IMG/VR virus record: IMGVR_UViG_3300027743_000086 | Coordinates: 1 to 24,366 of that record | Source: a virus | Length of the DNA stretch: 24,366 nucleotides | Reading direction: 5' to 3' (one strand) | Part shown: positions 170 through 9,445 of the stretch, one piece after another | Numbering within the stretch: the first letter of the stretch is position 1 | Layout of the letters: each line of letters opens with the position of its first letter | The notes under the pieces: model-generated | Seen by the model: the letters and a program-made list of their open reading frames with translations, nothing else | Told to the model about the DNA's origin: nothing | The model's database searches: none | Program-made: the position numbers and the translations under genes

Positions 170-502
170 TTAGCGCCTCTCAGCGCGGGACTTGGCGGTA
201 TGGCAGGCCCTGCACAATCCCTGCAGGTTCTCCCGCCAGAAGAACAGCCGCTCATCCCCTTCATGCGGGCGGATATGGTCGACGTGGGCATCCACCCGTG
301 TGAGCGCCCGGGTACAGCCAGGACCCGCACAGAACGGCTGCTCTCGCAGCACACGCGCACGCAGGCCCCACACGGGGTGACGCCACTGGGCGCGCATGTA
401 GAGATTCGCACCCGCGGCCTGGCGGTGCACAAGGCAGCGCCCTCGAGGGACGAGCGTGCGACAGCCCGGCTGCGTACAGAAGCGCAGCGGGGCCGTCGGC
501 AT
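170..502 (-). CDS. Phage HNH endonuclease
   Basis: This 110-residue protein is a small phage HNH nuclease of the type found next to terminases, where such enzymes assist DNA packaging or cos cleavage. A CxxxxC pair near the N-terminus (FCTQPGCRTL) is followed by a second zinc-type pair (CAGPGC), then the catalytic DH in HVDHIRPHEG, the Asn in RENLQGLC, and the closing CRACH. The ATG at 502 overlaps the stop of the upstream membrane protein as TGATG, which fixes the start and implies translational coupling. Homologues normally sit immediately upstream of terS; here the gene is at the left edge of the window while terS is at the right edge, which would place them together if the sequence is circular. 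Confidence 0.85.
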   Translation of the reverse strand: MPTAPLRFCTQPGCRTLVPRGRCLVHRQAAGANLYMRAQWRHPVWGLRARVLREQPFCAGPGCTRALTRVDAHVDHIRPHEGDERLFFWRENLQGLCRACHTAKSRAERR

Positions 503-684
503 CAGCGCACTCTGGGAAGAGGGATGTCCCCGATGAACAGCTGGAGCAGCCACAGTACGACCACCAGGATCACCACAACGCGGATGATCACCTTGATGGG
601 CGCGGCCATCGGGATCTGCGTCTCGACGAGGTAGAGCAGCACCCCGACGATGATGAGCACCACGACGACGGATATCAGGCCCAC
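502..684 (-). CDS. Small two-pass membrane protein
   Basis: This is a 60-residue protein with two strongly hydrophobic segments, roughly residues 3-20 (ISVVVVLIIVGVLLYLV) and 31-51 (IKVIIRVVVILVVVLWLLQL), separated by a short turn with METQ/PMAAP character. It resembles small membrane proteins of the Thivi_2564 type often seen in phage and bacterial genomes, whose role is not established. A holin-like role in lysis is possible because it is small, has two membrane spans and no other holin is recognisable here, but nothing in the sequence proves it. It overlaps the HNH gene by one base. Confidence 0.6.
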   Translation of the reverse strand: MGLISVVVVLIIVGVLLYLVETQIPMAAPIKVIIRVVVILVVVLWLLQLFIGDIPLPRVR

Positions 685-690
685 TGACGG

Positions 691-894
691 TCACCCTTCC
701 CACGTCGAGCGGGAGGCCGGGGCGTAGTGCAGCTGGCGGCCGGGGGCGCGCACGTCGGGATCGCGTTCACCCACGTCGGGATCGCGCTCGATGTCCGGGC
801 GATCCGGTGTCGTCGGGGGTTCAGGCTTTGGGGCCGGCTTCGTCGGTGGCTTCGGGGTCGGCGGCTTCGGATCGGACGGGGTTGGGGTCGCCAT
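691..894 (-). CDS. Proline-rich low-complexity small protein
   Basis: This is a 67-residue product. Residues 1-30 are a Pro/Lys/Thr tract (PKPPTPKPPTKPAPKPEPP) and are followed by a doubled RDPDV motif. An AAAGGA ribosome-binding site lies about 9 bases upstream of the ATG at 894. The first part overlaps the C-terminal codons of the preceding gene (821-1126) in another frame. Low complexity makes function unpredictable, and the frame could be spurious. The good ribosome-binding site and the fit in the operon, with the next gene starting at 684, are the reasons for calling it. Confidence 0.4.
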   Translation of the reverse strand: MATPTPSDPKPPTPKPPTKPAPKPEPPTTPDRPDIERDPDVGERDPDVRAPGRQLHYAPASRSTWEG

Positions 895-1467: not shown

Positions 1468-2267
1468 GACGTCCCCTCAACAAACTGTTGCAACACGGTC
1501 GCGCGCGACGTGCCGACGATCCAGAGGCGAAAGCGCGCGTCGAGCCACTTGAACACATCCGGCGCGATCGGTTCGCCGCTCCGTTCGATCTCGACGTCGA
1601 TGTCGTGATACCAGGGCAGTAAGCGCGCATCGGGATCCGTCCCACCCAACAGCCGGCGAAAGTCGTCGTGTAATTTGTTCGGGACTTTCAGCCGCGCCCC
1701 GACAAACGCGTGATTTTGCAGGGCTTTTGCGTATTGCAGGGGACTCATGATCAGCGGCGGGGCCGTCGTCGTCGTCGCCTTCTGAGGTACGACTCCGACA
1801 AGATCTTGTTTCTTAGTACGTACCCGGAGATCAGAGATCGGAGAGCCATCATCTGGCGATGCGTTGGCCATCGTTTGGCCATTAGGGTCGCCATCATCTG
1901 GCCATCGGTTGGCTATGCCGTCGCCATCGTTTCGCCATCGCTTGTTGGCGCCCTTCGCCCCGTTCTGCGCCTGCTTTATACGGAAGGCTTCCTGCTCCTC
2001 TCGCACGTGCTCGAGCCGCACGTTTCGCCAGCGGCCAGCGTCATCACGGATGAACTTCTCGCAGATGCGCGCCCAGATCTTCACGGCGGCCGGCCGCGTG
2101 CAGCGCATCGTCTGCGCCAGCGCCACGGGATCGTCGCCCGGCACAAACCCGTCGTCCCACTGCGCGCAGAGCAGCAGCATGTAGGCGCCGACTTCAGTCG
2201 TCGTCATCTTGCGCGTCCCCGACACGAAGTCGTTCGGGTAGAACTGGAAGGCCGGCGGCGCTTTCAC
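1464..2267 (-). CDS. DUF1376-type phage replication protein
   Basis: This 267-residue protein starts MKAPPAFQFYPNDF and contains MTTTEVGAYMLLLCAQWDDG, the signature of the DUF1376 (YdaU-like) winged-helix family found in phage replication modules, in the position of lambda O. Residues about 100-145 form a low-complexity linker rich in DDG, PDDG and NGQ repeats. The C-terminal third (about 180-260) is helical and probably contacts the loader or helicase. The gene overlaps the annealing protein by 4 bp upstream and the loader-like gene by 4 bp downstream. The linker-coding DNA carries an iteron-like repeat, listed separately. Confidence 0.75.
   Translation of the reverse strand: MKAPPAFQFYPNDFVSGTRKMTTTEVGAYMLLLCAQWDDGFVPGDDPVALAQTMRCTRPAAVKIWARICEKFIRDDAGRWRNVRLEHVREEQEAFRIKQAQNGAKGANKRWRNDGDGIANRWPDDGDPNGQTMANASPDDGSPISDLRVRTKKQDLVGVVPQKATTTTAPPLIMSPLQYAKALQNHAFVGARLKVPNKLHDDFRRLLGGTDPDARLLPWYHDIDVEIERSGEPIAPDVFKWLDARFRLWIVGTSRATVLQQFVEGTS
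1845..1939. repeat. Iteron-like repeat, candidate phage origin
   Basis: The hexamer GCCATC occurs six times in 95 bp on the plus strand (1845, 1867, 1890, 1901, 1923, 1934). Several copies are extended, as in GGCCATCGTTTGGCCAT and TCGCCATCGTTTCGCCATCG. A CCATCATCTGGC block also repeats with a 45-bp period (1846 and 1891). The array lies inside the DUF1376-type gene, as lambda iterons lie inside O. Origin function is inferred from position and repetition only; the repeats could instead just reflect the repetitive linker they encode. Confidence 0.5.
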
Positions 2268-3079
2268 GGGATCCGCTCCGGTGGCACGGTCCGCGGACCG
2301 CGTGCGACGATTTCCAACGCCTGCTCATAGTCCGCCATTCGGAGGTCATTCGTGCTTTCGATGCCGAAGGCGGCATAGATCGCCTGTTTCAGCGCCTCGC
2401 GGTCGGGCCACGGATTGCCGATCTGCTTCGCCATGTCGGCCGTGGCGAACAGCTTCACCCGTTGCGGGGCCGTGATCGGTTTACTCTCAGGGTCCACTCG
2501 GCGGGGCGGCGGCGGGGACGGGGCGGCGGCGACGACGATGGGCGGCGGCGGCGGTTCGTGGTCGTCGTCCCGTTCGAGTTCCTCCGCCGATACCTCACCA
2601 AACCCCACGAGGGACGACACGGCGCGATTGAAGGCCCGCGTGTGCGCGTGCGCGCGGATGTTGTGCTCCGTCGCCTGCCAGGGCAGCAGACGCCATTTGT
2701 TGGCCTCGCGGCGTGACGCCTTCTCCAGCGCCGCGCAGCTGCCATCGCCGACGGACGAGCGGCCGGTGGGCGTCGTCGCCCGGTAGAGGACGAAATACAC
2801 GAAGTTATCGTGGCCGTCCTCGAAGGTGCCGTGGACTTCGCGCCGCTCCTGGACGAGGTCGAGGGTCAGATTGAAGGCCGTGGCGACGCCGCGCCAGTAC
2901 CCTTTCTTGCGGAAGGGGCGGCCCTCAATCTTGAGAATCTGATCCGGCATCGCCTTGTCGAGCGCCTGCTGGAGCTGCTGGTACTCGCGGAAGGCGGAGG
3001 ACATCGCGGCGGCGCCGTACAGCGGCGCGGGCATCAGCGCGGGGTCGATCGGGACGAGCGCGGTACTTTTCGCGGTCAT
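2264..3079 (-). CDS. Putative single-strand annealing protein (phage recombination)
   Basis: This is a 271-residue protein with an N-terminal core (about 30-165) containing GYWRGVATAFNLTLDLV, a YRATTPTGRSSVGDGSC segment with an invariant-looking GDG, and the strongly conserved-looking AHTRAFNRAVSSLVGFGEVS followed by AEEL. This arrangement is typical of a phage/archaeal family that I associate with Rad52/ERF-like single-strand annealing proteins. A Pro-rich linker (about 173-195, PPPPP and SPPPPRR) leads to a small C-terminal helical domain (about 200-260, SKPITAPQRVKLFATADM) of the kind that ends many such proteins. It sits between a DNA-binding-like gene and the replication initiator. The exact annealase family is uncertain. 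Confidence 0.55.
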   Translation of the reverse strand: MTAKSTALVPIDPALMPAPLYGAAAMSSAFREYQQLQQALDKAMPDQILKIEGRPFRKKGYWRGVATAFNLTLDLVQERREVHGTFEDGHDNFVYFVLYRATTPTGRSSVGDGSCAALEKASRREANKWRLLPWQATEHNIRAHAHTRAFNRAVSSLVGFGEVSAEELERDDDHEPPPPPIVVAAAPSPPPPRRVDPESKPITAPQRVKLFATADMAKQIGNPWPDREALKQAIYAAFGIESTNDLRMADYEQALEIVARGPRTVPPERIP

Positions 3080-3087
3080 GGGAAAAC

Positions 3088-3654
3088 CTACGACTTAAAC
3101 GACCTAACGACTGTGGTAAACGTCTGCCAACGCTTCCCTAGCAGACGGTGCAGTGTCCCGGCCAATGCGTCCAGATTGTCAACCGGAACCGTTACCGTGC
3201 GCGGCCGTAATCCAGCCTTTATCGCCGCCGCATTCACGCTCAGTTCACCATCGACAACACGCCGGTACAGTGCTTTGTCCTTCTTGTGTAAACGTGCGAG
3301 CGTGTAACTCCTGGTGTTACCCTGAATCGCCTTCTTAATTACATTGGTATGATGATGTTGCCCTTGTGGCGCGACCACTTCGGCCCGGAACATCCGTAAG
3401 GCTTCAAGGTCGTCCTTCAGTAGTGCTTCAACCTTTTTTAGATCTTCTCCAAACCCCTTCAACGGTGGCGCTGTGACCAGTTCCGCGAACGAGGCACACT
3501 CGATAATTTCGCCCGTCCGGATGCGCCGTCGGCGCCACGCCTCGTCCCGTAGCACGACGACGATCATGTTGGCGAGGCCCGCCAAGTTCATTTCTGAACC
3601 GCGCAGTGTGCGATCCAGGTCGTCGCACAATTCGCCGGCACGTTCGGCGGTCAC
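3088..3654 (-). CDS. Putative DNA-binding protein of the early operon
   Basis: This is a 188-residue protein of unknown function. The N-terminal half is helical and resembles no family I know. The second half (about 105-165) contains KKAIQGNTRSYTLARLHKKD and LYRRVVDGELSVNAAAIKAG, a helix-turn-helix-like pattern common in phage and plasmid proteins that couple a repeat-like RSYTLxRL segment to a GELSxxAAAxxAG motif. The start is set at the GTG at 3654, which overlaps the helicase stop as GTGA; a more distal ATG at 3702 would overlap the helicase by over 50 bp. The gene has lower GC and more AT-rich codons than its neighbours near 3100-3450. Confidence 0.6.
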   Translation of the reverse strand: MTAERAGELCDDLDRTLRGSEMNLAGLANMIVVVLRDEAWRRRRIRTGEIIECASFAELVTAPPLKGFGEDLKKVEALLKDDLEALRMFRAEVVAPQGQHHHTNVIKKAIQGNTRSYTLARLHKKDKALYRRVVDGELSVNAAAIKAGLRPRTVTVPVDNLDALAGTLHRLLGKRWQTFTTVVRSFKS

Positions 3655-5489
3655 AGGTCGCTCACCTTCAACAGATCCAGCCGCTCGATAGCTCTGCGGC
3701 ACTCATCCAGCGTGAACAGTTGGCGATCCCATTTGCCGATGAATCGACCGACGTAGTTGTTGAGTTTTTGGAACTTCTCCGGATCGTCTTTCAGCAAACG
3801 AAACGCGATGCGCTTGACCTTGGCGTCGAGGGCCTTGCGTGCATCGTCCATCTGCTTTTCCAGCGGACGTTGAGGACTTCGCCGCTCGCCGGAACCAGCC
3901 GGCGCCGCGGCGGGTTGCCCGTGGTACTTCTTGTAGACGCGCAGCGCCTGGACTTCAGATAACCCACACTCGCGCGCCAGTGCGGCAATTTCCGCAGCCA
4001 TCGCGGGGCTGAGCGATTCGCCTTCGATGATCGTGCCGGCGGTGCCGGTATGCTCCGTGCCAATGATGATGTCCGACGAGAACAACGGCGGATCCCAGAG
4101 TGTGCGGCGAATGGCGTCGTCAAATTCATCGTCCGATTCGTCTTCGATCGCTTGCGCCTGTGCTTCCGTGATCTGTCGTGCGTGTTGCACCAGAATCGGG
4201 TGATCGGGAATGAAGCAGTACGCTTCCATGTCTTCGGGCGTGCCCATATTGCGAACGATGCGCCCAACGGCCTGCCGAAAGAACAACGGCGTTTTCGCCG
4301 TCGTTAGGTACGCTTCAACGATCAGCCGTTTAATGTCGACGCCTTCGCTGATTTGCTTGACCGCTACCACCCAGAGCTGGTTACTCTCGCGGAACGCATC
4401 AACGGTCGAGGTCGCCCGGTCGCCATCCGAAATGACCAGATCGGGCGCCTCGCCGGTAATCGTCTTCAATTGCTGCGCGATTCGCTGGGCATGATCCTGA
4501 TCGATGCAAATCGCCAAACCGCCAGCCCGCGGCATGGTTTCGCGACAGCGCAGTAGTTGGGCATGGGCGAGGCGGAGCAATTCGTGGGTGTACTTGCCGG
4601 GCCGGAGAATGCGCGACAAGGCTTCACTGGCCGCGGCTTCTGACACCTCGCTCGAGAGTTCCAGATTTTCTTCGCCCGTCATGGACAGGCGCCGCACGAT
4701 CCCGCGTTCGTGTTGAAAACGGACGACGCGGATCACGCCGTCACGAATGGCCCGCGGATAGTCATAGCGGTAGTTCGCGACACACCAGCCCTCACCGTCA
4801 TAGTCCACAAACGGGATCCGCGTGCTATCGCCCCGAAAGGGCGTGCCGCTCATCACCAGGCGACGTCCAGCGGCGCTGAAGCACTCGCGGAGATGAAAGC
4901 CCCACTGATTCTCGTCGCCGGCGTGGTGAATTTCGTCACAGATCACCAGGACGTCTGTTTCATGGCAGCGCAACTGCCACAAGGGCGCATGGCCCGGCAG
5001 CCCTTGATAGGTCAGAACGAATCCGACCATTTCAGATTTCCAGTGATCGCACTCGCGGGTTTGGAATTGCAGGCCGAACAGCGCTGCCGCTTCGCTCTGC
5101 CACTGGTTCCGCAGTGCATCCGTGGGGACGACGATCACGACCTTGCGGCGTTCTGGATGCTCTGCGATCCATTCTCTGGCCGCCATCAAGGCTGCAACGG
5201 TTTTCCCCGCGCCCGGCAGCGCCACCAACAAGAACGATGCACTGGTGTCTCGACGCCAGGCGTAGATGAATTCTTCTTGCCACGCGCGAGGGTCCGGAGG
5301 ATTTGCCATCGACTTCGCCCGATTCTCGTCGCCCGTCAGCGCCTGCAAGTTCAAGATGTCGTCCGATCCGCCGGCGGCGCGGGGCACTTTGTGATCGGTC
5401 TCCCACGTCGATCCCAGCGGCGCGCCGGATAGTTGGCTACGTCCCTGAGCGTTGACGTAAAGGGCCTCACGGATTCGTTGGCGCGCCAC
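3651..5489 (-). CDS. HNH-domain/SF2 DEAH-type helicase fusion
   Basis: This is a 612-residue superfamily 2 helicase. Walker A is LPGAGKT at 91-97, the motif II box is CDEIHH with D185/E186, motif III is MSGT near 213-216, motif V is SEGVDI at 381-386 and motif VI is QAVGRIVR at 406-413. The first 60 residues form a separate HNH-like domain: GRSQLSGAPLGSTWETDHKV has the DH at 32-33, GG at 40-41, NLQAL from N47 and N56 in the closing GDENRAKS. The usual zinc cysteines are absent. The C-terminal 170 residues are charged and helical. GTG at 5489 is preceded by AGGA at proper distance. A role in phage replication or recombination, or in degrading competing DNA, is inferred. Confidence 0.8.
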   Translation of the reverse strand: MARQRIREALYVNAQGRSQLSGAPLGSTWETDHKVPRAAGGSDDILNLQALTGDENRAKSMANPPDPRAWQEEFIYAWRRDTSASFLLVALPGAGKTVAALMAAREWIAEHPERRKVVIVVPTDALRNQWQSEAAALFGLQFQTRECDHWKSEMVGFVLTYQGLPGHAPLWQLRCHETDVLVICDEIHHAGDENQWGFHLRECFSAAGRRLVMSGTPFRGDSTRIPFVDYDGEGWCVANYRYDYPRAIRDGVIRVVRFQHERGIVRRLSMTGEENLELSSEVSEAAASEALSRILRPGKYTHELLRLAHAQLLRCRETMPRAGGLAICIDQDHAQRIAQQLKTITGEAPDLVISDGDRATSTVDAFRESNQLWVVAVKQISEGVDIKRLIVEAYLTTAKTPLFFRQAVGRIVRNMGTPEDMEAYCFIPDHPILVQHARQITEAQAQAIEDESDDEFDDAIRRTLWDPPLFSSDIIIGTEHTGTAGTIIEGESLSPAMAAEIAALARECGLSEVQALRVYKKYHGQPAAAPAGSGERRSPQRPLEKQMDDARKALDAKVKRIAFRLLKDDPEKFQKLNNYVGRFIGKWDRQLFTLDECRRAIERLDLLKVSDL

Positions 5490-5499
5490 GTCACTGTTC

Positions 5500-5958
5500 C
5501 TACGTCAGCACCGCCGCGGCGGCCTCGCCAAAGGCCAACAGGCAGTGCTGGTCGACGCGCCCGCCCGGGTCGGCCGCCACCTGCCGCGCATACTCCCGGC
5601 ACGCCAGGTGCGCGAGCGTCGCGCAGGATTCCCACGAGCGGCTGTACTCCGCCGTCGCATCCCAGATGGCGCCGGCGCAGACGTAGACGGCCACGTCGCC
5701 GATGACGGGCAGCCGCCGCCGGTCGAAGGCGGAGGTCGCCAGCGCCAGGAGGACGATCGCGGCTTGCGTGCGGAGGTCGGGATAGGCGCTGCGGAGGAAC
5801 GACGCGAGGATCGCGGCGTCGATGGTGTAGTCGTGTTCGAGCGGAATGAGCCGCCGCTTCTCTTCCGCGATGCGGCCGAGATGTTCGATGCGTTGTTGAA
5901 ACGCCTCACGCCTGCACGCAAGAGTGCCGGTACTTTCTGGTGACACCATCCGTTCCAT
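5500..5958 (-). CDS. Hypothetical early protein next to attP
   Basis: I do not recognise this protein. It has a charged N-terminal helix (REAFQQRIEHLGRIAEEKRR) and a hydrophobic helical centre (AAIVLLALATSAFDRRRLPV), then an Ala/Cys-rich helical C-terminus. The frame is open back to a TTG at 6057, and ATG codons occur at 6015, 5958 and 5949. I favour 5958 because GGTGA lies 4 bases before it, and because codons upstream of about 5995 fall in a repeat that duplicates integrase C-terminal codons and probably belong to the att region. It ends 10 bp before the helicase start and so heads the early operon. Confidence 0.6.
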   Translation of the reverse strand: MERMVSPESTGTLACRREAFQQRIEHLGRIAEEKRRLIPLEHDYTIDAAILASFLRSAYPDLRTQAAIVLLALATSAFDRRRLPVIGDVAVYVCAGAIWDATAEYSRSWESCATLAHLACREYARQVAADPGGRVDQHCLLAFGEAAAAVLT

Positions 5959-6193: not shown

Positions 6194-7342
6194 TCAAACC
6201 CTACGCCCCTTACGACTTACCACCGCCAGCCCGCCTTTCGAGGCCCGGCGCGGTTGCACCACCCGTGGTGCAGTGTCCGTACTTCCGTCCATAATGCGCC
6301 GCAAATCCGCGGTGACATCGGCTTCCGTCAGGATGTTGTAGCGCTGCCACATCGACAGCGTCTTGTGGCCCATGATCGCCATGACCGTGGACGTCGAGAC
6401 GCCGAGCCGGTTCAAATTCCGCGCGGCCGTGCGGCGCAAGTCGTGCAACAGCTTATCCGGCACGCCCGCGGCGTCCCGGGCGGCGTTGAAGGCCCCACGC
6501 CAGTTGACGATCGGGTCTCCCCGCCGGGCGCCGCGGCCGCCGGCCCACCGCACGAAGACGCGCGTGGTGCCAATGCCCTCCGCCTGCAGCTCCGCGCGCA
6601 CGCGCGCACACGTCCGGAGCACGCGCGCCACGGCCGGCACCAGGGCGTAGGGGATGCCCTTGCCGCTCTCTTCCTTCGAATCCTCGGGGTCGAGGCGCAG
6701 CCAGCCGTCGGCCTGGACGTGCCGCCACTCGAGCCGGGTGACTTCCTCGAGGCGCCAGCCGGTCCAATACATGACCGTGAGAATCGGGCGCAGCTCGAGC
6801 GGCAGCTGCCGCTTGACGCGCACGTAGTCCGGCCGTTCGAAGAACCCCGTGCGGCGGTTGTTCTCTTTCAGCATGGCCAGGTACGGCACGGTCGCCACCA
6901 GCCGCGCCTGATGCCCGAGCACGAACATCCGGTGCAGCATCGCGCGTTCGCGGTTGATGCTGGCGTTGCTGGCGCCGGCCGCCTTGCGCGTCTGGCGGTA
7001 CAGCGTCCAGGCGCCGGCATCGATCGTCGACAGCTTGCGCGCCTTCCCGAAGTACGCGACCAGGTGCTTACTGCGGCTGCGCACGTTCGCCAGCGTGTCC
7101 CGGTCGTTGAGTTCGTAATCGGCGACGAGCAGTGCGAGCGCGACGTGCAGGGTGAACGTGTGCGCGCCCCGGGGCGGGGCCAGCCCGTCGGCAATCTCGG
7201 CGACCTTGCGCTGATACACCTTCAGCGCCTCGTCGTAGTCGGTCTGCCCCGTCGAGAATTCGCGCTGCCCCTTGCCGGGGATGTTGACGATCATGGACCA
7301 CGTCTTGCGGCCGGGTCGCCGGCGGACTGCGCTGTTATGCAC
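6194..7342 (-). CDS. int: Phage tyrosine recombinase integrase
   Basis: The C-terminal catalytic domain is complete. Numbered from the upstream TTG at 7363, it has R204 in WTGWRLEEVTR, a likely K230 in the beta-hairpin (EDSKEESGKG), H307 and R310 in LLHDLRRTAARN, H333 in MGHKTLSMWQ and the nucleophile Y342 in QRYNI. Residues about 70-165 form the SAM-like core-binding domain, and the first 60 residues are a basic arm-binding-type domain. I prefer GTG at 7342, with GGGA 8 bases upstream, because the TTG at 7363 has no ribosome-binding site. It overlaps or follows the excisionase-like gene directly and ends beside the tRNA-Leu fragment. The C-terminal tail after Y342 is long and basic. Confidence 0.93.
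   Translation of the reverse strand: MHNSAVRRRPGRKTWSMIVNIPGKGQREFSTGQTDYDEALKVYQRKVAEIADGLAPPRGAHTFTLHVALALLVADYELNDRDTLANVRSRSKHLVAYFGKARKLSTIDAGAWTLYRQTRKAAGASNASINRERAMLHRMFVLGHQARLVATVPYLAMLKENNRRTGFFERPDYVRVKRQLPLELRPILTVMYWTGWRLEEVTRLEWRHVQADGWLRLDPEDSKEESGKGIPYALVPAVARVLRTCARVRAELQAEGIGTTRVFVRWAGGRGARRGDPIVNWRGAFNAARDAAGVPDKLLHDLRRTAARNLNRLGVSTSTVMAIMGHKTLSMWQRYNILTEADVTADLRRIMDGSTDTAPRVVQPRRASKGGLAVVSRKGRRV
6255..6272. repeat. Perfect 8-bp inverted repeat inside the integrase 3' end
   Basis: TGCACCAC, CC and GTGGTGCA form a palindrome that abuts the right copy of the 27-bp direct repeat. In this position, within the int coding end and near the att core, it could be a protein-binding site of the intasome or an RNA hairpin that limits int translation or retro-regulates its mRNA. 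Confidence 0.5.
6272..6298. repeat. 27-bp direct repeat, right copy
   Basis: This is the partner of 5995-6021 (24 of 27 identical), here inside the integrase C-terminal codons for RRIMDGSTDT. The left copy can be read as VRIMDTSTDT in the neighbouring frame, so the similarity is also visible at protein level. Confidence 0.55.
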
Positions 7343-7571
7343 CTTTAGATTCCCATTGGTCAATCGTCGCGATGAGCGCCGCGCGCCGGATCCAGTACCG
7401 TTTCTTCCCGGGCGGCTGCACCACGGGCAGGATCCCCTCGTGGATCCACTGCAAGAGCGTCGTGTAGGGGACGCCCGACCACCGCGCCGCCGCCTCGACG
7501 GTCATCAATTCAGACGTGTCACTGCTGACGCGGGCCATCTTGCGGGGACCATCGGGGCGAGGCGTAGCCAT
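7335..7571 (-). CDS. Excisionase-like MerR-type helix-turn-helix protein
   Basis: This 78-residue protein has a winged helix-turn-helix: MTVEAAARWSGVPYTTLLQW (about 24-43) is the HTH and is followed by IHEGILPVVQPPGKKRYWIR with the wing. This is the pattern of the excisionase/MerR-like HTH family that binds near att sites and steers recombination towards excision. It lies directly upstream of int and overlaps its earliest possible start. The ATG at 7571 is chosen because AGGAAGG lies about 10 bases upstream and because any start near 7634 would fall inside the promoter -10 box. It could also act as a transcription regulator of the module. Confidence 0.75.
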   Translation of the reverse strand: MATPRPDGPRKMARVSSDTSELMTVEAAARWSGVPYTTLLQWIHEGILPVVQPPGKKRYWIRRAALIATIDQWESKGA

Positions 7572-7712: not shown

Positions 7713-7907
7713 GTGAAACACCCGACGTCTATCTACACTCCAGATAGCATGGAGAGAGCGAAGAAAGTAGTGGTGTTCCGGCGGGGCTGGAAATGCCTCC
7801 GCTGTGGGCATGACTGGATCCCGAAGATGGCCGGCAAGCCCCGCACGTGTCCCAAGTGTAAGTCGCCGTACTGGGACTTGCCGCCGCGTCAGCACAAGAA
7901 ATCCTAG
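7713..7907 (+). CDS. Small zinc-ribbon protein, divergent from int
   Basis: This is a protein of up to 64 residues with a clear zinc ribbon: CLRCGHDWIP and then CPKCKSPYWDLP, spaced by 15 residues. Similar short ribbons occur in phages and bacterial toxin-antitoxin or regulatory settings, where they are usually unassigned. It is the only well-supported plus-strand gene. The frame opens at GTG 7713, but ATG 7749 is an alternative and neither has a clear ribosome-binding site. Its TAG stop and the TAG of the converging glycosidase-like gene share the palindrome CTAG (7904-7907). It occupies the place where a temperate phage would keep a lysogeny regulator, so a regulatory role is possible but unproven. 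Confidence 0.7.
   Translation: MKHPTSIYTPDSMERAKKVVVFRRGWKCLRCGHDWIPKMAGKPRTCPKCKSPYWDLPPRQHKKS
7729..7747 (+). promoter_or_regulatory. Short inverted repeat before the zinc-ribbon ATG
   Basis: CTATCT and AGATAG form a 6-bp stem with a 7-base loop, ending one base before the ATG at 7749. It could be an operator half-site pair or a small mRNA hairpin. If translation starts at GTG 7713 it lies inside the gene. Confidence 0.3.
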
Positions 7908-9445
7908 CCCGCCAGCATCGCCTCGAGTTCGGCGAGGTGCTTGTCGAGCGCCTCCTGCTGGCTCATCCCCGCGTGGTAGTCGTACTGGGTCCGCGTAATC
8001 CAGACCGGATACTGATCGTCGAGCGCGCGGCCGTGCGCGGCGTACTTCTCCACCACGGCGGGCCGCACGGTGTTGGTGATCCAGGGTTCGTCGTAGAGCG
8101 GCAGCGGCATCTCGGGTTCTCCTCCGCCGATCGCCTTCATGGCGGCGGCACATTCCGGCATCTGCGGCAGTTCGTGGACGTAGCGCAGCTCGCGCCACCC
8201 ATTCCAGTACTCCTGCGGGAGATGCCCATTCCACACGCACCATTCGCTGTGGCCGACGTAGAGCGCCCACCCGGCGGCGATGGTGTTGGTGAAGTCCTTC
8301 GCGACCTGATCGCCGGTGGTATTCATCCCGCCCGCTGAGGATCCCGGCCCGGGCGGCTCGTTGTTGATCTTCGGCAATTTCGGGTAGAAGGCGTTGTACG
8401 CGCTGGGCAGCGCCCACTTGCCCTCCGGCGTCGACGGGTCCACGCCGCGCATGGTGTGAATGGTGATTTCATTCGCGCCGGCGTGATCGTCGCCGCCGTA
8501 CAGCTCGTCAAAGCTGGCTTCCATCGCTTCGTTCGTCGGCATCGGCCCGCTGCCCCCGTGCGCGGCGTCGGGCGACGACAGCGACAGCCGGAACCCCGGC
8601 GGCAGTTTCGATCGCAAGTCGCGGCCGGCCGCGCGCACCTCGTCCGCGGTCCAGTGGTTGACGCGGAATTCGTTCATCATCTCGAACGACCGGATCGCCT
8701 CCCAGCGCCCGCTACTCGCGGCGACGATCCGGTCGTGGAAGCGCCGGCGATCGTCCTCGGAGGGTGTCTGGTTGCGCCCGCCGTAGACGGTGGCGTGCAG
8801 CTGCCAGCCGAGGTCGCCCGCGACGTCGAGCATCTTTTTGTAGCGGTTCTCCCAGTCCTCGGTGATGAACACGCCGGCATCCCGCCAGCAGTCCGGGGAG
8901 CCGTGCGACTCGCCCTCGACGGCCAGCATGACGCGGATCACCCGCGGCGCAATCTGGGCGCGCACCCAGTCACGGTTCTGCTTCTCTTCGTCGGGCCATT
9001 CGGCGAGCGCCGTCTGCCAGCAAAACCAGCCGAACGCCAGATCGCAGACGCTGTTGGGGCCGGCATCCGACGGCGTGCCGCTGTCGAAGATCGGCCAGCT
9101 CGAGATGTCGATCCACGTGTTGGACGGGCGCCACTCGTGTTCCGCGGCCGGGACCCAGCACGGCCCGCCGACAAAGTCGGGATGGCCCGCCGCCGACGTG
9201 ATCACGTCACAGCGATCGCCTTGCGGGACGGCGACGTAATCGAACGACGTGCGGACGCCATTCGGGAACGTGACGCCGTTCTCGCCCTCGTTTTTCGAGA
9301 GCAGGCCCCAGCGTTCGCCGGCCGGCAGCGCCGCCACGAGGCGTTGGAGGAATTCGCCACAGGCGGCGGCGGTGTTGTGCTTCAGTAGATGCGGAAACGC
9401 CTGATTGACCGACTCGACGACGCCGACATAATTCGGTACGGCCAT
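7904..9445 (-). CDS. Tail-module protein with glycoside-hydrolase-like domain
   Basis: This 513-residue protein appears to have two domains. Residues 1 to about 112 (CGEFLQRLVAALPAGERWGL ... CDVITSAAGHP ... WIDI) resemble an N-terminal domain found in many phage tail-region proteins of unknown role. Residues about 130-450 look like a TIM-barrel hydrolase of the GH-A clan: FEMMNEFR gives a candidate acid/base E259 after Asn, and INNEPPGPG gives a candidate nucleophile E363. It ends the late operon after the tail-tip genes, with a GGGAG ribbon-binding site before ATG 9445. A virion-associated depolymerase that degrades host surface glycan is the simplest reading; a lytic enzyme is the main alternative. 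Confidence 0.6.
   Translation of the reverse strand: MAVPNYVGVVESVNQAFPHLLKHNTAAACGEFLQRLVAALPAGERWGLLSKNEGENGVTFPNGVRTSFDYVAVPQGDRCDVITSAAGHPDFVGGPCWVPAAEHEWRPSNTWIDISSWPIFDSGTPSDAGPNSVCDLAFGWFCWQTALAEWPDEEKQNRDWVRAQIAPRVIRVMLAVEGESHGSPDCWRDAGVFITEDWENRYKKMLDVAGDLGWQLHATVYGGRNQTPSEDDRRRFHDRIVAASSGRWEAIRSFEMMNEFRVNHWTADEVRAAGRDLRSKLPPGFRLSLSSPDAAHGGSGPMPTNEAMEASFDELYGGDDHAGANEITIHTMRGVDPSTPEGKWALPSAYNAFYPKLPKINNEPPGPGSSAGGMNTTGDQVAKDFTNTIAAGWALYVGHSEWCVWNGHLPQEYWNGWRELRYVHELPQMPECAAAMKAIGGGEPEMPLPLYDEPWITNTVRPAVVEKYAAHGRALDDQYPVWITRTQYDYHAGMSQQEALDKHLAELEAMLAG

Follow-up and report, generated by a model that had tools for sequence, protein, structure and literature searches.

ZRANB3 is an ATP-dependent SNF2-HNH structure-specific nuclease with an HNH domain resembling T4 endonuclease VII, and its cutting of splayed duplex requires ATP hydrolysis (PMC5481773). 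In archaeal XPB-Bax1, a helicase motor is paired with a nuclease, and the nuclease Bax1 is a separate protein (PMC7293015). Phage T4 encodes the SF2 branch-processing helicase UvsW, which regresses forks, and the HNH-class junction resolvase endonuclease VII (gp49), which can cleave regressed forks (PMC3016281). UvsW and endonuclease VII are products of separate genes. UvsW is accompanied by UvsW.1, a small potential DNA-binding partner (PMC7824862).

The window analysed here, a stretch of 24,366 nucleotides covering positions 1 to 24,366 of the IMG/VR virus record IMGVR_UViG_3300027743_000086, encodes an HNH-SF2 helicase fusion of 612 aa at 3651-5489 (GTG start at 5489, stop at 3653-3651). 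The original prediction, made from the sequence alone, gave these coordinates correctly and missed that the gene lies on the minus strand. It also overlooked the zinc-bearing relatives, the one-time loss of the cysteines and, most notably, the near-obligate partner gene that comes next. The frame is open throughout with no internal stops, and a Shine-Dalgarno-like AGGAA (5497-5501, minus strand) stands 7 nt ahead of the start. On the same strand, the gene encodes a cysteine-free HNH domain (residues 1-63, 5301-5489), an SF2 helicase core defined by ResIII/DEAD matches, a PDB profile search and Foldseek (residues 67-440, 4170-5291), and a C-terminal extension that is mostly helical in the predicted model (residues 441-612, 3654-4169). 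Gene B, encoding 188 aa, follows at 3088-3654 on the minus strand, with a GTG at 3654 and a GTGA overlapping the helicase stop.

The combination of an SF2 motor and a beta-beta-alpha HNH domain in one chain recalls ZRANB3 and the bacterial ZRANB3-like proteins. ZRANB3 itself combines a SNF2 motor and PCNA-binding motifs with an HNH that lies at the C-terminus and carries a zinc finger, whereas the window protein has an N-terminal HNH, a RadD/XPB-like motor and a separate linked gene B. With the motor nearest RadD and XPB and the HNH at the N-terminus, the window protein is not of the ZRANB3/SNF2-HNH type. It is also not of the T4 UvsW type, as an HNH is present and UvsW is not the nearest motor relative; gene B is likened to UvsW.1 as a small partner. 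Among solved motors, archaeal XPB ranks first by sequence. E. coli RadD (YejH) is the best structural match, but it covers the motor part only at about 18% identity and has neither an HNH nor B. True homologues are PIS_093/PIS_094 of phage PIS 136 and gene pairs on Streptomyces plasmids, where the same fusion is followed by B. In contrast to the window, these homologues keep four zinc cysteines, and they are annotated only as a DEAD helicase and a hypothetical protein.

The motor carries the hallmarks of SF2 helicases. Walker A (GAGKT, residues 92-97, 5216-5199), the DExH box (DEIHH, residues 185-189, 4937-4923) and motif VI (QAVGRIVR, residues 406-413, 4274-4251) are all present on the minus strand, and ResIII matches at 5e-14, in agreement with the full DEIH helicase read originally. 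The PDB profile search placed archaeal XPB (XPBII, 1.5e-20) and RadD (7e-14) nearest. Foldseek neighbours comprise RadD (1.5e-14), XPB-Bax1, type ISP/I restriction motors, Rad54, UvsW (ranked 27th, 2.7e-11), Hef and FANCM. Most of the fold neighbours are branch-directed DNA translocases or repair motors, with restriction motors and nucleosome remodellers also listed. RadD, XPB-Bax1, UvsW, Hef and FANCM among the nearest relatives would favour a branch-directed motor, but general SF2 similarity does not fix the substrate. The C-terminal extension is also found in relatives that carry no HNH. A role of the extension as a docking domain specific to B was rejected, given that relatives lacking B have the extension just as often.

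The motor core also resembles the ATP-dependent restriction motors LlaBIII, HsdR and SauUSI, and PADLOC returned partial matches to PbeA (6e-20, 69.3 bits, no cut-off given), DpdE and DrmD. Such likeness could indicate a conflict weapon, in which the enzyme would track along DNA and cut host, plasmid or rival-phage DNA, with B providing specificity or self-protection. The portability of the cassette across diverse phages, plasmids and sporadic actinomycete genomes is consistent with this. The matches in PADLOC and NCBIfam, though, are to the generic motor and stay far under the curated cut-offs where these are given (Dnd restriction 58.9 versus 600 bits, DpdE 40.5 versus 500, DrmD 22.1 versus 610), which places the protein outside the known defence helicases. 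Furthermore, no methyltransferase or self-marking gene is conserved alongside the cassette, and the window cassette sits among integrase and replication-type genes. We consider a weapon unlikely. The earlier suggestion that the enzyme might attack rival DNA found no specific support, with no modification gene or constant partner besides B.

The N-terminal domain is recognizable as HNH by several routes. Window residues 28-51 match Pfam HNH (E 1e-3) with 19.7 bits, slightly below the curated threshold of 21.4, and the match to the HNH endonuclease families phrog_589 (8e-6) and phrog_333 (1e-4) spans residues 2-63. The isolated N-terminus matches the Cas9d HNH region (7e-5) as well as an IscB model. 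A profile built from cysteine-bearing relatives alone finds window residues 10-64 (ORF numbering) at E 7e-9. The AlphaFold model shows a strand at 30-33 carrying D-H, a strand at 48-51 and a helix at 53-60 carrying N56, which together form a beta-beta-alpha unit with pLDDT of about 76-95 across the HNH block. The N-terminal fold is thus HNH-like in the predicted structure, as the original reading would require. Its spacing is likewise real, with D32-H33 (5396-5391), G40-G41, N47-L48-Q49 (N47 at 5351-5349), N56 (5324-5322) and K59, and the D-H...N...N spacing together with the fold assigns the window protein to the HNH (beta-beta-alpha-metal) superfamily.

The window protein alone matches only moderately, and the identity of the domain is settled by the matches of the family. 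Each of the 39 aligned fusions reaches E<=0.01 against Pfam HNH (best 1.4e-13), and 37/39 match each of phrog_2118 HNH (best 2e-17) and phrog_1035 endonuclease VII (best 1e-13). Pfam Endonuclease_7 is matched by 15 of the 39. The endonuclease VII matches are to be read at the level of the family, with the window HNH reaching E 0.004 against phrog_1035. Residues G16, D32, H33, G41, N47, N56 and K59 show no variation among the 39 aligned members, which extends the DH pair noted originally to 39 homologues; the helicase motifs are likewise invariant in 39/39. Pooled over five pairs of zinc-bearing relatives, the HNH has a dN/dS of about 0.13. The domain is under purifying selection.

Fusions of this kind recur in many other phages, which the original prediction had proposed to check. 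A single-protein query against viral contigs retrieved no relatives and an alignment-based query was needed. The profile-type scan identified 79 loci in viral contigs and 80 more in a genome scan. About 45 different viral contigs carry the HNH-helicase fusion itself, as do three Streptomyces plasmids, the isolated Saccharomonospora phage PIS 136 and one Saccharothrix contig. In some loci (L068, L077, L079-L081, L083 and L084), the HNH is a separate small ORF that overlaps the helicase start in another frame, and a different HNH type, recognized by eye, is fused in L085/L086. That an HNH occurs at the helicase start across different lineages, in some as a fusion and in others as its own gene, argues for a nuclease-helicase. 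Locus L188 (823-4076) has an HNH fused to a different SF2-like helicase, recognized by eye, followed by gene B, with the motor being exchanged. In phage PIS 136, the annotated start of PIS_093 (8091) omits most of the HNH domain, which continues in frame upstream (L002, 8001-8091). The PIS_093 start is probably mis-annotated. HNH-less relatives of the helicase are found in chromosomes of many Actinomycetota (L089-L167), and the sampled chromosomal HNH-less copies, L119 excepted, form one supported group on the tree.

Gene B is the fixed partner of the fusion. Homologues of about 190 aa lie a few to tens of bases behind the helicase in nearly all fused loci. Among loci with enough downstream sequence, B is present in all 53 with an HNH and absent from none, while the loci with no HNH detected have B in 8 cases and lack it in 97. 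The Fisher value of 7e-34 overstates independence, because many of the HNH-less loci are chromosomal genes closely related to one another and because a phylogenetically corrected test of the linkage had too little power, with 8 independent pairs over all branches and 1 over starred branches. Among the eight loci with B and no HNH detected, L012 and L087 are truncated ahead of the HNH, the fused HNH of L034 falls outside the position rule, and L085/L086 carry the divergent HNH, which leaves L008, L057 and L061. A search by B alone retrieved 21 viral loci, and an HNH protein lies upstream in 21/21. The helicase and B queries, run independently in phage and plasmid collections, converged on the same phage and the same three Streptomyces plasmids. 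With an HNH at the helicase N-terminus and B directly downstream, the window carries the same module. An HNH, a helicase and a fixed partner B point to an undescribed DNA-processing machine, which we propose because about 50 other phages and plasmids nearly always keep B directly behind the helicase.

B had no family match in Pfam or PHROGs. The B model is helical and confident (pLDDT 90.6), yet Foldseek retrieved nothing significant among solved structures, and significant matches in a viral structure library are to uncharacterized phage proteins only. ParB structures recur in the Foldseek output, all at E>2. A profile comparison of B with ParB/KorB gave P 0.22 over 23 columns (reversed control 0.33), and a ParB/KorB-type DNA-binding protein was not accepted. 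B is sporadic in actinomycete genomes (11/395). The four strongest full-length copies all occur with the helicase, one being cut by a contig end, while weaker and mostly partial matches have no helicase (L218-L224, L209/L213). One actinomycete genome has partial B-like copies close to either end of an 8.87 Mb contig, with an internal stop codon.

In the window, the operon runs in the order excisionase-like gene, integrase, a gene for a 185-aa unknown protein, HNH-helicase, B, a gene for a 271-aa unknown protein and a DUF1376/primosomal-type gene. The tyrosine integrase (6194-7363, minus strand) lies two genes upstream of the HNH-helicase, and the DUF1376/primosomal-type protein (1464-2267) is encoded downstream on the same strand. 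The 271-aa protein (2264-3079, minus strand) has relatives in methanogen viruses (34% identity, E 1e-13) and is single-strand annealing protein-like by eye. A 513-aa gene (7904-9445, minus strand) has no PHROG match (best E 0.11) and is glycosidase-like by eye. Assignment to a phage replication module, as made originally, fits the window genome, where the integrase and the DUF1376/primosomal-type gene are present, but fails as a rule for the family. B is the sole conserved neighbour of the helicase (54 loci), the next unrelated cluster covers 5 loci, and two other large neighbour clusters consist of shadow frames on the strand opposite B. The cassette has no recombination or replication gene as a constant neighbour, and apart from B no true neighbour recurs in >5 loci. 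The 46 carrier records, many of them fragments, contain a tyrosine integrase over the cut-off in 20 cases and a YqaJ exonuclease in 12. In L011, a repressor-like gene (by eye) and the cassette point away from each other.

A terminase-like gene, identified by eye, directly follows B in L009. This arrangement is what a packaging or headful-cutting module similar to terminase-associated HNH proteins might look like, but terminase-like genes are no conserved neighbours elsewhere. The window also has a separate, ordinary HNH gene (170-703, minus strand; Pfam HNH 1.9e-6), which, if the two ends of the contig are joined, would directly precede the terminase genes (24319-22306). A packaging role for the fusion is very improbable.

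The zinc knuckle distinguishes the window from most of the family. C18, C21, C52 and C55 are each conserved in >=90% of fused members. All four positions are non-cysteine in the window (S18, S21, T52, E55), as originally observed, and the same S, S, T and E replace the cysteines in L009, its near-copy L010 and L011. The window protein hence falls outside the zinc-knuckle HNH subgroup (CxxC...CxxC). The cysteine-free members form one supported clade on the helicase-core tree (SH-aLRT 98 in a quick search), corresponding to one change. HNH domains of Cas9 and colicin have no zinc knuckle either. The HNH of L009 and L010 differs by 3 synonymous and 0 non-synonymous changes, small numbers from a near-identical pair. 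Given the retained catalytic-type positions and these purely synonymous changes, the cysteine-free clade appears to have lost a structural zinc site while keeping its active site.

Loss of the zinc knuckle in the window genome could have weakened the HNH. The domain might even serve for DNA binding only in the cysteine-free clade, leaving the protein to work purely as a helicase or translocase. The clade lost all four zinc ligands in a single event, and the many HNH-less relatives show that the motor can function by itself. Against an inert HNH, the window, L009 and L011 retain every catalytic-type residue, even though the L009 and L011 proteins are only about 40-47% identical to that of the window. 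Zinc-free HNH nucleases exist, and it is Cas9d and IscB models that the window HNH matches. An HNH reduced to DNA binding is unlikely in our view.

We find the evidence evenly poised for reading the HNH-helicase as a nuclease of phage recombination or replication that is powered by ATP, is directed to branches and has B as an accessory subunit. The SF2 motor would load on branched DNA, such as stalled forks, D-loops or Holliday-like junctions arising from phage recombination and replication, and remodel it. Strand nicking at the branch would fall to the N-terminal HNH, for which a one-metal mechanism is probable, with D32 and N56 binding the ion and H33 serving as the general base. B may act as a loading or regulatory subunit. 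We infer HNH cutting, its dependence on ATP, the branched-DNA substrate and the binding of B to the enzyme. The roles in recombination or branched replication intermediates raised in the original prediction are favoured, by inference, by the helicase relatives and the endonuclease VII profiles.

More tentatively, the HNH, the SF2 helicase and B might form a dedicated machine that is widespread among phages and phage-like plasmids and corresponds, in one package, to UvsW plus endonuclease VII. B would then be a new type of subunit and the window would represent a zinc-free subclade. The HNH-helicase fusion is not categorically new because nuclease-helicase fusions are already known. In the open-access literature, we found no description of an N-terminal HNH joined to a RadD/XPB-like motor with a near-obligate partner. 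The zinc-free clade is a further variant within the family.

In many carrier phages, the cassette is annotated merely as a helicase and a hypothetical protein. Should the two proteins make up one enzyme, they would provide a compact system for asking how a nuclease is guided to branched DNA by its motor, and a function would be named for a family absent from Pfam and PHROGs. The pair would also offer a natural comparison of zinc-bearing and zinc-free HNH domains inside one family.
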